A stretch of DNA of 64,000 nucleotides from an uncultured Flavobacteriaceae bacterium (GTDB lineage Bacteria > Bacteroidota > Bacteroidia > Flavobacteriales > Flavobacteriaceae): NCBI GenBank assembly GCA_947503105.1, contig CANNCM010000002.1, positions 391,546 to 455,545 of the forward strand. The letters are read 5' to 3'. Below, piece after piece: positions 50,671 to 55,242 of this stretch (within the stretch, counting starts at the first letter, position 1; each line of letters begins with the position of its first letter). Under the pieces are notes generated by a model that saw only the letters and a list, made by a program, of their open reading frames with translations, did no database searches and was not told the origin of the DNA. Position numbers and translations under genes: made by a program.

Positions 50671-50678
50671 TAGATTTG
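50671..50678 (+). promoter_or_regulatory. -7 element of the outer-membrane transporter gene
   Basis: TAGATTTG matches TAnnTTTG exactly, 18 bases before the ATG at 50697. The alternative TTG at 50676 lies inside this box. Confidence 0.45.
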
Positions 50679-50696
50679 ATAAAAGCAAAAATAACG

Positions 50697-51671
50697 ATGA
50701 CCTCGATCTTTAAAACCACTTTTATTTTTTCATTGTGTTGTACAGCATTTGTGCATGCACAATATACCGATGTAATTAATTCTAACCGCCCTGGTGCATC
50801 ACAAACAGCATTTTCGGTAGGTATAAATGTATTACAGTTTGAAGTGGGCCCTTTTTTGATGAATGAAAAAAGAACGCCTTATCCCTCCTATGAAGTGAAA
50901 GGTTTTGGGGTAGACTTTGCAGCACATTATGGGTTTTTTAAAGAAGCATTAGAGTTCAATTTTCAGGGTACTTACCAAAGGGACACAAAAACGTACAACG
51001 TTGCTGTGCCTGTTGAAAATGAAAGAGCAAACTTCAAAAACTTAAATTTTGGAGCAAAATACTTGGTTTATGACCCCAATAAAAACAGAGAAGAAAAAAT
51101 AAATGTATATAGTTATCACGCAAATCGTGGGTTCAAATGGAGACAACTTATTCCTGCGGTAGCCGTTTCGGCTGGTGTAAATTATGATACAAAAGATAAT
51201 CCCTATACTGCAAATGGTGTGGAGGGGCTAAGTTATCGCGCTGCGCTAATCACTCAAAATAATTTTTATGGGGGATGGGTTTTTGTAACCAACCTGATGA
51301 TGGATCGCATCAGTTCAGATCAGCAGGATCTACACTACATTCTTACCCTCACACATTCCTTCAATCCAAAATGGGCTATTTTTGCAGAAAAACATGGTAT
51401 AAAAAGTGATTTTTATGCTGATAATCTTGTGCGTTTTGGTGGTGGGTATCTCTTCAATAAAGACCTTCAACTTGACACTGCAGTCACATTAAATTTCAAA
51501 GACACACCTTCTGTATTTAGTGTCAATTTTGGAGTCTCCTATAGAATAGATCGTCATGTGGATAAACCAAAAATTAACAATAATAGTTCTGCAAAAGATC
51601 AGAAAAAAAGAAAATCACGCTCCAAAAAGAAATCGAAAAAGAAAAAAGTTGAAAATTTTGACGAAGGTTAA
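50697..51671 (+). CDS. Outer-membrane beta-barrel protein, phenol-degradation MetA-like transporter family
   Basis: 324 residues from the ATG at 50697, with a signal peptide ending FVHAQ. The mature start DVINSNRPGASQTAFSVG and alternating strands throughout fit the MetA-pathway-of-phenol-degradation barrel group. A basic lysine/serine-rich tail of about 35 residues follows the last strand, which is unusual for a barrel whose end should insert in the membrane. Substrate unknown. The GNAT-like gene follows after 5 bases. Confidence 0.78.
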   Translation: MTSIFKTTFIFSLCCTAFVHAQYTDVINSNRPGASQTAFSVGINVLQFEVGPFLMNEKRTPYPSYEVKGFGVDFAAHYGFFKEALEFNFQGTYQRDTKTYNVAVPVENERANFKNLNFGAKYLVYDPNKNREEKINVYSYHANRGFKWRQLIPAVAVSAGVNYDTKDNPYTANGVEGLSYRAALITQNNFYGGWVFVTNLMMDRISSDQQDLHYILTLTHSFNPKWAIFAEKHGIKSDFYADNLVRFGGGYLFNKDLQLDTAVTLNFKDTPSVFSVNFGVSYRIDRHVDKPKINNNSSAKDQKKRKSRSKKKSKKKKVENFDEG

Positions 51672-51676
51672 ATTTT

Positions 51677-52792
51677 ATGATTGAAATAAAAGAAGTTATT
51701 TCTGAAAAGGAAAAGAAATCATTTGTAAAATTTCCTTTCAAGTTATACAAAAATTCTCCATACTGGGTTCCTCCTATTATAAGTGAAGAACTCAAAATTT
51801 TTGATAAATCTAAAAATCCTATACTTCAAGATGCCGAGGTACAACTTTTTTTAGCGTATAGAGGCAATCGTGTTGTTGGACGTGTAGCAGCTATCGTCAA
51901 TTGGATTGAAATTAATGAACAAAATGTGAAAAAAATGCGCTTTGGTTGGTTCGATTTTATTGACGACCTCAGCGTTAGTCGTGCTTTGCTTGAAAAAATT
52001 TCGGAAATTGGAATTGCCCATAACCTAAACTATATGGAAGGCCCAGTGGGGTTTTCAAATTTGGATAAAGTTGGTGTTCTCACTCATGGTCATGATGTTA
52101 TTGGCACCATGATTTCATGGTACAATCATCCTTATTATGCCTCACATTTAGAAGCACACAAGTTTGTTATAGAAAAGGAATATTTGGAATACAAACATGC
52201 TTTTTCGGATATAAAAATTGAGAAATTCAAGCGCTTAAGTGAAGTTATCGAGAGGCGATACAAGCTAAAATCATTAAATTTTACTTCTACAAAAGAAGTG
52301 ATGGTATATGCGGATCAAATGTTTGATCTATTCAACTTAAGTTACTCCAAATTATCTTCATTTGTAAAAATTACCGAACTTCAAAAAGCCTACATGAAAA
52401 AGAAATTTTTAAATTTCATCAATCCAGAGTACATCAAGTTTGTGGTTGATGCAAATGACGAGCTTGTTGCATTTGCTGTAGTGATGCCTTCTTTTGCAAA
52501 AGCACTTCAAAAGATAAATGGAAAGTTGTTTCCCTTTGGATTTTTAAAAATATTAAAAGCTAAAAAAGCAAAATCTGTAAATTTTTTATTGATTGGGGTG
52601 CACCCAGAGTATCAAAATAAAGGAGTTCATGCGCTTATCTTTAGTGCCTATCACAAAACATTTGAATCTAAAGGAATAACAGAATGCCGAAGAACCCCCG
52701 AACTTTCAGATAATCTTGAAATCCACAAACTGTGGCGCGATTTTAACCCTCAGTTGATTAAAAAACGCTGTACGTACAGAAAAAATTTATAA
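51677..52792 (+). CDS. GNAT-like acyltransferase domain protein
   Basis: 371 residues, cytoplasmic. The N-terminal half has SPYWVPPIISEELKIFDKSK and a GNAT-like VVGRVAAIVN strand. The C-terminal half has LLIGVHPEYQNKGVHALIFS, the acetyl-CoA pyrophosphate-binding Q/R-x-x-G-x-G/A-type motif. It has the look of a double-GNAT or Fem-like fold. Homologues are often misnamed GTP cyclohydrolase. Acceptor unknown; the convergent neighbour three bases away is the PLP acyltransferase. Confidence 0.75.
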   Translation: MIEIKEVISEKEKKSFVKFPFKLYKNSPYWVPPIISEELKIFDKSKNPILQDAEVQLFLAYRGNRVVGRVAAIVNWIEINEQNVKKMRFGWFDFIDDLSVSRALLEKISEIGIAHNLNYMEGPVGFSNLDKVGVLTHGHDVIGTMISWYNHPYYASHLEAHKFVIEKEYLEYKHAFSDIKIEKFKRLSEVIERRYKLKSLNFTSTKEVMVYADQMFDLFNLSYSKLSSFVKITELQKAYMKKKFLNFINPEYIKFVVDANDELVAFAVVMPSFAKALQKINGKLFPFGFLKILKAKKAKSVNFLLIGVHPEYQNKGVHALIFSAYHKTFESKGITECRRTPELSDNLEIHKLWRDFNPQLIKKRCTYRKNL

Positions 52793-52795
52793 AAA

Positions 52796-54055
52796 CTACT
52801 CGCCCATAGCTGCAGATACCGCAGCGGAAAGTCTTTTGTAAAGACCAGAATTTAAGCGTTCTCTAATGCTAGAAAATGCTTGAAGTGTTTCTTCTACGTC
52901 TTCTAAAGTATGCATAGCAGTTGGTATCATTCGTAAGAGAATCAATCCTTTTGGAATAACAGGATACACAACAATAGAGCAGAAAATTCCGTGGTTTTCG
53001 CGCAGATCTTTTACCAATGCCATCGCCTCAGGAATACTACCTTTCAAATATACAGGAGTTACACAACTTTGTGTTGTACCAATATCAAAACCTCTTTCCT
53101 TGAGTCCAGATTGTAACGCATTGACAATTTTCCAAAGATTTTGTTTGAGCTCAGGCATGGTACGGATCATGTCTAAACGCTTTAAAGCGCCTTTGACCAA
53201 TTGCATTTGCAATGATTTTGCAAACATCTGTGAGCGTAAATTATATTTTAAATAATCTATAATTTCTTTATCGGCTGCAATAAAGGCTCCTGTACTTGCC
53301 ATAGATTTTGCAAAAGTTGCAAAATAAACATCTATATCGTCTTGAATACCTTGCTCCTCGCCTGCTCCTGCTCCCGTTGCTCCAAGGGTTCCAAAACCAT
53401 GGGCATCATCTACAAGAAAACGGAAATTAAATTTTTTCTTTAGAGCTGCAATTTCTTTTAGACGACCTTGCTCTCCGCGCATTCCAAAAACACCCTCAGA
53501 GATGACAAGAATACCACCTCCTGTTTGCTCTGCCATTTTTGTGGCACGCTCCAAGTTTTTTTCTAAACTTTCAATGTCGTTGTGCTTGTATGTAAAACGT
53601 TTTCCCATGTGCAACCGCACTCCGTCAATGATACATGCATGAGAATCAACATCATAAACAATAATATCATCCTTACCAACTAGGGCATCAATTGTAGACA
53701 TAATGCCTTGATATCCAAAGTTTAAGACATATGCAGCCTCCTTATTTACAAACGCAGCAAGCTCTTGCTGCAACTGTTCGTGAAGTTCTGTATGGCCAGA
53801 CATCATTCTAGCGCCCATCGGATAGGCAGAACCGTATTCGCTAGAAGCGGCAGCATCAACCTCTCGTACTTGTGGATGGTTAGCAAGCCCCAAGTAGTCA
53901 TTTATACTCCAAGTGATGACGTCTTTGCCTTGAAATTTCATGCGGTTAGATATCTGACCTTCTAACTTTGGAAATACAAAATAGCCTTCCGCTTGGCTTG
54001 CCCACTTTCCTAGTGGTCCTTTATCTTTATAAATCTTCTCAAATAAATCTCTCAT
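52796..54055 (-). CDS. PLP-dependent alpha-oxoamine synthase, candidate cysteate fatty acyltransferase
   Basis: 419 residues, fold type I. The PLP lysine is in FATFAKSMASTGAF (Lys250). DDAHGFGTLG gives the ring-nitrogen Asp, and DVDSHACI the stacking His139. Alpha-oxoamine synthases condense an amino acid with an acyl thioester and lose CO2 (serine palmitoyltransferase, KBL, BioF). The N-terminal 30 residues (GKWASQAEGYFVFPKL) and length differ from the roughly 395-residue Bacteroides serine palmitoyltransferase. They agree with what I remember of the flavobacterial capnine enzyme, which joins cysteate to a fatty acyl group. A cysteine-synthase-like gene lies just upstream. Confidence 0.8.
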   Translation of the reverse strand: MRDLFEKIYKDKGPLGKWASQAEGYFVFPKLEGQISNRMKFQGKDVITWSINDYLGLANHPQVREVDAAASSEYGSAYPMGARMMSGHTELHEQLQQELAAFVNKEAAYVLNFGYQGIMSTIDALVGKDDIIVYDVDSHACIIDGVRLHMGKRFTYKHNDIESLEKNLERATKMAEQTGGGILVISEGVFGMRGEQGRLKEIAALKKKFNFRFLVDDAHGFGTLGATGAGAGEEQGIQDDIDVYFATFAKSMASTGAFIAADKEIIDYLKYNLRSQMFAKSLQMQLVKGALKRLDMIRTMPELKQNLWKIVNALQSGLKERGFDIGTTQSCVTPVYLKGSIPEAMALVKDLRENHGIFCSIVVYPVIPKGLILLRMIPTAMHTLEDVEETLQAFSSIRERLNSGLYKRLSAAVSAAMGE

Positions 54056-54080
54056 CTAAGTATTTTGTTGGTTCAGTTGT

Positions 54081-54088
54081 CAAAATTA
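54081..54088 (-). promoter_or_regulatory. -7 element of the alpha-oxoamine synthase gene
   Basis: Leftward TAATTTTG (54088-54081) matches TAnnTTTG, 25 bases before the ATG at 54055. A TTTTG lies upstream but at a 14-base spacing, which is short. Confidence 0.45.
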
Positions 54089-54170
54089 TGCAATAATATA
54101 CTCAAAACATAATGATTTTTAAAATTATAAAGTTCAGTAGAAAATAAGTTGGGGGTTGTAATTGATTTGA

Positions 54171-55217
54171 TTATTTGACGTACTCAATAGATTTAGTATT
54201 GGGCTTTAGTGTTTCGTCCATAAACCCTTGATCTTCCATCCATTTGTCATTGAACACCTTACTCATATAGCGAGAACCGTGGTCAGGAAAAATCATGACA
54301 ACAACATCATCATCAGAAAATATTGATTGTTCTTGTAATTGTTTTACAGCCTGTACAACTGCTCCAGAAGTGTACCCTCCAAAGATGCCTTCGGTATGCG
54401 CCAATTCGCGAGCTGTATGGGCACTGTCTTCATCTGTAACTTTTATAAATGTGTCAATGGCATCAAAATCTGTAGCGGTTGGAATTAAATTTTTTCCAAG
54501 TCCCTCAATGCGGTAAGGATATATTTCATTAGCATCAAATTCTCGGGTTTCATGGTATTTTTTTAATACTGAGCCATAGGCATCAACACCAATTATTTTT
54601 ACCTCTGGATTTTGCGATTTGAGATACTGAGCCGTTCCAGAAATCGTACCCCCAGTTCCACTACAAGCCACCAAATGCGTGATTTTTCCGTGCGTTTGTT
54701 GCCAGATTTCAGGTCCAGTACTCTTATAATGAGCTTCAGTATTCAATTCATTAAAATATTGATTGATGTAAACTGAACCCTCAATTTCTTTGTGTAAGCG
54801 CTTTGCTACCTCGTAATATGATCGTGGATCGTCTGCTTTTACATTTGCAGGACAGACATATACCTTAGCGCCCATGCTTTTGAGCATATCAATCTTGTCG
54901 GGCGATGATTTGGAACTTACTGCCAAAATACACTCATAACCCTTAATAATACTAACCATGGCAATACTAAAACCTGTATTCCCAGAGGTGGTTTCAATTA
55001 TGGTATCCCCATGTTTTAGGATGCCTTTTCTTTCGGCCTCTTCAATAATATGCAATGCAATCCGATCTTTTGAAGATTGGCCAGGATTAAATGCTTCTAG
55101 TTTTGCAATATAAGTTCCTGGAAAATTTTTTGTAACATGATTAAGCTTTACAAGCGGAGTATTTCCCACAAGCTCTAAAACGTTATTGAAAATCTTAGAT
55201 TGTCGATCTAATGGCAT
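54171..55217 (-). CDS. Cysteine-synthase-like PLP enzyme, candidate cysteate synthase
   Basis: 348 residues, fold type II. The PLP lysine is in [11 protein letters not shown] (Lys50). The substrate loop reads ETTSGNTG (residues 75-82, where cysteine synthases usually have EGTSGNTG or EPTSGNTG), and the phosphate-binding loop is GTGGTISG (187-194). The C-terminus extends about 25-30 residues beyond CysK. A standard O-acetylserine sulfhydrylase is possible. However, its place 115 bases upstream of the alpha-oxoamine synthase suggests it makes L-cysteate (from a phosphoserine- or serine-derived aminoacrylate and sulfite) for a sulfonolipid. Confidence 0.75.
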
Positions 55218-55234: not shown

Positions 55235-55242
55235 CAAAAATA
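55235..55242 (-). promoter_or_regulatory. -7 element of the cysteine-synthase-like gene
   Basis: Leftward TATTTTTG (55242-55235) matches TAnnTTTG, 17 bases before the ATG at 55217. Confidence 0.45.

Follow-up and report, generated by a model that had tools for sequence, protein, structure and literature searches.

The published route to the sulfonolipid base runs from phosphoserine to cysteate (CapA), from cysteate to 3-ketocapnine (CapB/SulA) and from 3-ketocapnine to capnine (CapC/KCR) (PMC11211663, PMC12927429, PMC10191378). The three enzymes are described in PMC12927429 and PMC10191378, the second of which spells out their roles, and the reductase genes are, according to PMC11211663, not located beside the other two pathway genes. 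The Alistipes enzyme takes its acyl group from acyl-ACP. In SulA the PLP is carried by Lys251, and the residue that sets the enzyme apart is Lys281, which is an alanine in serine palmitoyltransferase (SPT) (PMC9304779). Loss of Fjoh_2419 in Flavobacterium johnsoniae abolished the sulfonolipids (Vences-Guzman et al. 2021, as cited in PMC9304779). Gliding has been linked to these lipids in the literature, as has signalling towards mice and choanoflagellates (PMC11211663 and PMC10191378).

The locus described here lies in a Flavobacteriaceae genome of 2.16 Mb (G000, 99.5% complete), within a window of 64,000 nucleotides (contig C2:391546-455545), which is the whole stretch of DNA that was analysed. 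Two open reading frames of 419 and 348 residues, both starting with ATG and ending with TAG and TAA, occupy positions 52796-54055 and 54171-55217 of the reverse strand. A first-pass annotation of the bare sequence had reported two leftward genes at exactly these coordinates; the enzyme families it named also hold, with Aminotran_1_2 found in the 419-residue protein and PALP in the 348-residue protein. The upstream gene (54171-55217) is assigned as capA, a cysteate synthase of the PLP-dependent fold type II, and the downstream gene (52796-54055) as capB/sulA, a PLP-dependent cysteate fatty acyltransferase of the alpha-oxoamine synthase type. Judged from sequence, the pair is predicted, with a probability of about 95%, to make cysteate and then 3-ketocapnine, that is, to carry out sulfonolipid base synthesis. 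Family membership was established here for both proteins; the reactions ascribed to them are carried over, by analogy, from characterised family members. CapA would exchange the phosphate of O-phospho-L-serine for sulfite in a PLP-dependent reaction, giving L-cysteate. In the PLP-dependent step of CapB, cysteate and a fatty acyl thioester would be condensed to 3-ketocapnine with release of CO2. In the host, a reductase encoded elsewhere would then convert 3-ketocapnine to capnine, and N-acylation of capnine would yield sulfobacin-type lipids. Since the pathway to the base has already been published, the window pair is a further instance of a known system; it means that a small Flavobacteriaceae genome retains the committed steps of sulfonolipid synthesis.

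The assignment of CapB comes from structures, curated models and phylogeny. It is 91% identical to the CapB proteins of a Kordia sp. (L005) and of an uncultured Flavobacteriaceae MAG (L006). It aligns to PDB 28eh, a Cysteate-C-fatty acyltransferase, with 703 bits and 71% identity, and to 7u7h, the SulA of Alistipes finegoldii, with 569 bits and 59% identity; the 245 bits obtained with the SPT structure 3a2b are far below both. It scores 301.8 bits on the SPT model NF047600 (cut-off 640) and 239.9 and 279.8 bits on the KBL models TIGR01822 and NF005394 (cut-offs 493 and 460), passing none of them, and falls far below the cut-off of the BioF model. In the CapB tree, 24 of the 38 rows form a CapB/SulA group on one side of a branch with 100/100 support, and the window protein is inside this group; the program warns of long branches, that of the KBL row above all, and the bit scores are independent of the tree. 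An identity of the 419-residue protein as KBL, SPT or BioF is rejected on the cut-offs, the PDB scores and the tree.

The host has a true KBL in a separate gene (L096; 680.5 and 659.5 bits on TIGR01822 and NF005394, both passed), and nothing over the SPT model cut-off was found in its genome, so a placement of CapB with KBL or SPT fails. Such a placement had been named beforehand as a result that would count against the pair; it was looked for and does not occur, and the phylogeny proposed as a check puts the 419-residue protein in the CapB/SulA group with 100/100 support, apart from SPT and from the host KBL.

The hallmark residues are also in place. Lys280 (codon 53216-53218, reverse strand), in the motif RSQMFAKS, is the equivalent of SulA Lys281, and Lys250 (codon 53306-53308, reverse strand) is the equivalent of the PLP lysine Lys251. 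The SulA-hallmark lysine, within its AKS motif, is present in all CapB relatives from the best 80 loci (80/80); in the CapB tree it was read directly in L109 and L128, and both have it. Around the PLP lysine, 79 of the 80 relatives show FAKSMA or FAKSLA.

CapA scores 638.9 bits on the NCBIfam model NF053679 (CysteaSynCapA) and thereby passes its curated cut-off of 600. It is the single CapA over the cut-off in the host genome, and the listed CBS, CysK, CysM and SbnA models score it below their own cut-offs. The best PDB match is chain 9k2p (64% identity), whose entry names it simply as a PLP-dependent beta subunit. The CapA tree, a small one of 16 rows with one very long outgroup row, supports a CapA-type group of 14 rows at 98/97, apart from a CBS/CysK-like paralogue of the host. 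On the model cut-offs and the tree, a plain cysteine synthase is rejected. The pair reading put forward in the first-pass annotation, a capnine-type sulfonolipid pair, is thus borne out by a CapA over its NCBIfam cut-off and by a CapB that groups with solved cysteate acyltransferases and has the Lys281 equivalent.

The substrate loop of CapA, as read from the translation, is ETTSGNTG at residues 75-82 (54972-54995, reverse strand). TT precedes SGNTG in 79 of 79 CapA relatives from the best 80 loci; in the wider CapA group this letter pair varies, 9k2p having ETS and L117 EAT. The contrast with EGTSGNTG that had been drawn at first sight recurs within the host, where the paralogue (L002) has EGTSGNTG against the ETTSGNTG of the window CapA. 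This paralogue (G000 C4:131314-132282) obtains 462.7 bits on the CapA model, under the cut-off, and is also below the cut-offs of the other models listed.

The arrangement of the pair is conserved among close relatives. The best 80 of at least 591 CapB relatives were kept as loci, and in 79 of the 80 capA comes immediately before capB in the same orientation, the match ends being separated by 17-309 bp; the adjacency that was to be checked across relatives therefore holds. The one exception, L052, has CapB without CapA. Across 148 Bacteroidota genomes CapB (E <= 1e-100) occurs in 54 and an over-cut-off CapA in 15. When coordinates were compared by eye, the two genes were adjacent in 8 of these 15 genomes, and apart or on different contigs in 7. 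Three further genomes (G012, G037, G095) have a CapA that is below the cut-off yet adjacent to CapB. In one genus (g2) of the host's family, capA and capB are far apart or on different contigs in all six sampled genomes.

A Bacteroidota -7-like element precedes each gene: TAATTTTG at 54081-54088 before capB and TATTTTTG at 55235-55242 before capA, both on the reverse strand. The TAnnTTTG motif had been noted before both genes at the outset, and it is conserved in the relatives: 59 of 80 CapB regions (shuffled mean 6.2) and 74 of 79 CapA regions (shuffled mean 7.5) carry it in the 100 nt before the gene. A -33 box has a usual spacing from the -7 element. TTG was sought 15-25 nt upstream of either element and none was found, so the -33 box at the usual distance is missing. 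With a separate element for each gene there would be two promoters, and capA and capB probably each have their own predicted promoter.

The reductase step had been described as absent from the window, and the host's best candidate does sit elsewhere. Eleven matches to short-chain dehydrogenases (SDRs) were found in the host, of which seven were scanned against NCBIfam; the best 3-ketocapnine reductase candidate among the seven is L087 (G000 C2:202175-202714), about 190 kb from the window. Its top NCBIfam match is 3-ketodihydrosphingosine reductase with 256 bits, which does not pass since the cut-off is 400.

The gene that faces the pair belongs to a lipid N-acyltransferase family, which the first-pass annotation missed. 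It occupies positions 51677-52792 of the forward strand, runs towards capB and ends 3 bp from it, and encodes a 371-residue YghO/bCerS-like tandem-GNAT protein, a candidate long-chain-base (capnine) N-acyltransferase. It has no NCBIfam match at E <= 1e-5 and its Pfam matches are to GNAT only, all under cut-off. E. coli K-12 YghO aligns to it over the full length, with 23% identity across 376 columns (E 2e-34, BLASTP of one sequence against the other). In one E. coli isolate yghO is clustered with spt, ACP, epimerase and acyl-AMP ligase genes. The CC_1154/yghO-type gene is presumably the gene that other papers call bCerS. In PMC9386255, yghO is listed with Caulobacter CC_1154 as an acyl-CoA N-acyltransferase for dihydroceramide, and CC_1154 is proposed as CerS in PMC11324152. 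The predicted structure of the window protein (pLDDT 90.9) is a tandem GNAT over its whole length. It matches 7q3a with Z 22.6 (rmsd 3.4, 303 aligned) and N-myristoyltransferases near Z 15 (rmsd about 5), a likeness of fold that shows no substrate. By sequence, PDB chains gave no good match to the protein, the best having E 0.11.

The facing gene is tentatively proposed, at somewhat less than even odds, to be the missing sulfonolipid N-acyltransferase, a YghO/bCerS-type tandem GNAT that would acylate capnine or 3-ketocapnine; this proposal relies on the family to which the protein belongs and on the occurrence of its relatives beside SPT-like genes. The titles in the literature searched contained no named sulfonolipid N-acyltransferase, and the literature beyond may say more. 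In PMC10865984 a CerS of B. fragilis is put to use for sphingolipids.

The pairing of relatives is frequent. SPT-like genes gave 113 matches, and at least 58 of them have a GNAT relative within 500 bp, in every case read in the same direction and separated by 23-180 bp; this count, like that for CapB, is a lower bound, made among the 150 matches listed. Only four of the 113 pass the SPT cut-off, and all four are among the paired genes. Nine SPT-like genes were checked and the SPT model scored highest among NCBIfam families, so that they are SPT-like by score only. An epimerase-family gene lies beside the SPT/GNAT pair, as in the E. coli cluster, in L162, L171 and L172, the three that were scanned of six SPT stretches. 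A search of the host for a CerR-type epimerase, with the L171 protein as query, came back empty, a result that shows little. In sphingolipid-making Bacteroidota Spt, bCerS and CerR are said not to be close together (PMC11334938); the frequent adjacency of SPT-like and GNAT genes (at least 58 of 113) partly contrasts with that remark. The GNAT family tree has two sides, divided by a 100/100 split. One holds YghO, for which the program warns of a long branch, and nine of the ten SPT-beside members sampled; the other holds the window protein together with the loners, the remaining CapB-beside members and a single SPT-beside member (L171). The window gene thus falls outside the SPT-linked subfamily.

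The rival account, to which about an even chance is given, is that the pair makes cysteate and 3-ketocapnine and the GNAT gene is an unrelated syntenic neighbour, the host either stopping at free capnine or N-acylating it with another enzyme. Among the 80 loci a GNAT relative is convergent to capB at less than 1 kb in 47 and further off in 7; one contig was too short and 25 loci are without. These 54 of 80 are matched by a PF13557 protein in 56, an 803-residue membrane protein in 54 and a glycosyltransferase in 52. Since unrelated neighbours are equally conserved, adjacency was dropped as proof of a functional link, and general synteny accounts for the adjacency as well as function would. In the phylum sample a GNAT relative lies within 1 kb of the CapB gene in 9 of 54, among the matches listed, which is also on the side of an unrelated neighbour.

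The distribution of the family bears on both accounts. With E <= 1e-10 it is found in 139 of the 148 genomes, and for this reason its presence was dropped as a CapB marker. Of the 25 CapB genomes with no GNAT relative at the locus, 16 have a family member elsewhere and 9 show none at E <= 1e-10, as the rival account would have it; the nine are Gramella, Mesonia, Gillisia (a MAG), Christiangramia, Salegentibacter, Psychroflexus and three further MAGs, which may be incomplete. The subfamily on the window side of the split, delimited at 230 bits by hand, occurs in 23 of 54 CapB genomes and also in 11 of 94 others, which again suits an unrelated neighbour. Against it stand the membership of the gene in the YghO N-acyltransferase family and a host that has nothing over the SPT cut-off for the GNAT protein to serve. 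In addition, a family member is kept in 30 of 33 genomes that have CapB and no SPT-like gene, versus 2 of 7 that have neither gene. The family is present in 137 and absent from 4 of the genomes with an SPT-like gene or CapB, and present in 2 and absent from 5 of those with neither (Fisher 4.6e-6, not corrected for kinship). Relatedness helps this contrast, as four of these last five genomes come from a single family.

Two observations concern the surroundings of GNAT relatives. A PF13557 (Phenol_MetA_deg) protein is encoded at 50676-51671 on the forward strand, 5 bp before the GNAT gene and in the same direction; their relatives are also found together in two genomes of the host's family (G029 and G084; L180, L181) that have capB elsewhere. 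In G077 (L178:6869-10603) an SDR reductase, a FabA-like dehydratase and a ketoacyl synthase are encoded in a row with the GNAT relative, and this row is about 7 kb away from the CapB of that genome.

If the facing gene is the N-acyltransferase, one bacterial family of long-chain-base acylases would act with SPT where sphingolipids are made and with CapB in Flavobacteriaceae. The bacteria whose genomes showed no family member (Gramella, Mesonia, Gillisia, Christiangramia, Salegentibacter and Psychroflexus) would then either contain capnine in its free form alone or rely on an acylase of unrelated origin. For the N-acylation of capnine, the neighbour provides a specific gene, the family it belongs to and a prediction drawn from genomes.

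That the pair is ordinary metabolism, a cysteine or cystathionine synthase beside a glycine C-acetyltransferase or serine palmitoyltransferase, is very improbable: the two proteins do share superfamilies with those enzymes and hit their models at strong E-values, but they are far below the cut-offs of these equivalog models, the host has a separate KBL over the cut-off and a separate CBS/CysK-like paralogue with EGTSGNTG, and the CapB tree separates CapB from SPT and KBL.

Read as a sulfonolipid base pair, the locus can be set beside the known systems. The facing gene is homologous over its whole length to YghO, from the bacterial ceramide synthase family (CC_1154, YghO), but lies across the 100/100 split from it. 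CapC is known from Ornithobacterium rhinotracheale (Liu et al. 2022, as cited in PMC12927429 and PMC10191378), whereas no capC is beside the window pair. The SulA of Alistipes finegoldii (7u7h) has the same active-site lysine as the window CapB, and the same PLP chemistry is expected; in Alistipes, however, cysteate is reported to be made by an archaeal-type synthase instead of CapA (PMC10191378), and the window has CapA. Fjoh_2419 of Flavobacterium johnsoniae is of the same enzyme class as the window CapB. In Capnocytophaga ochracea, as in the window, a cysteate synthase and a cysteate acyltransferase occur together as CapA and CapB (C7M8J5, C7M8J6), whose accessions, as given in PMC12927429, are consecutive.
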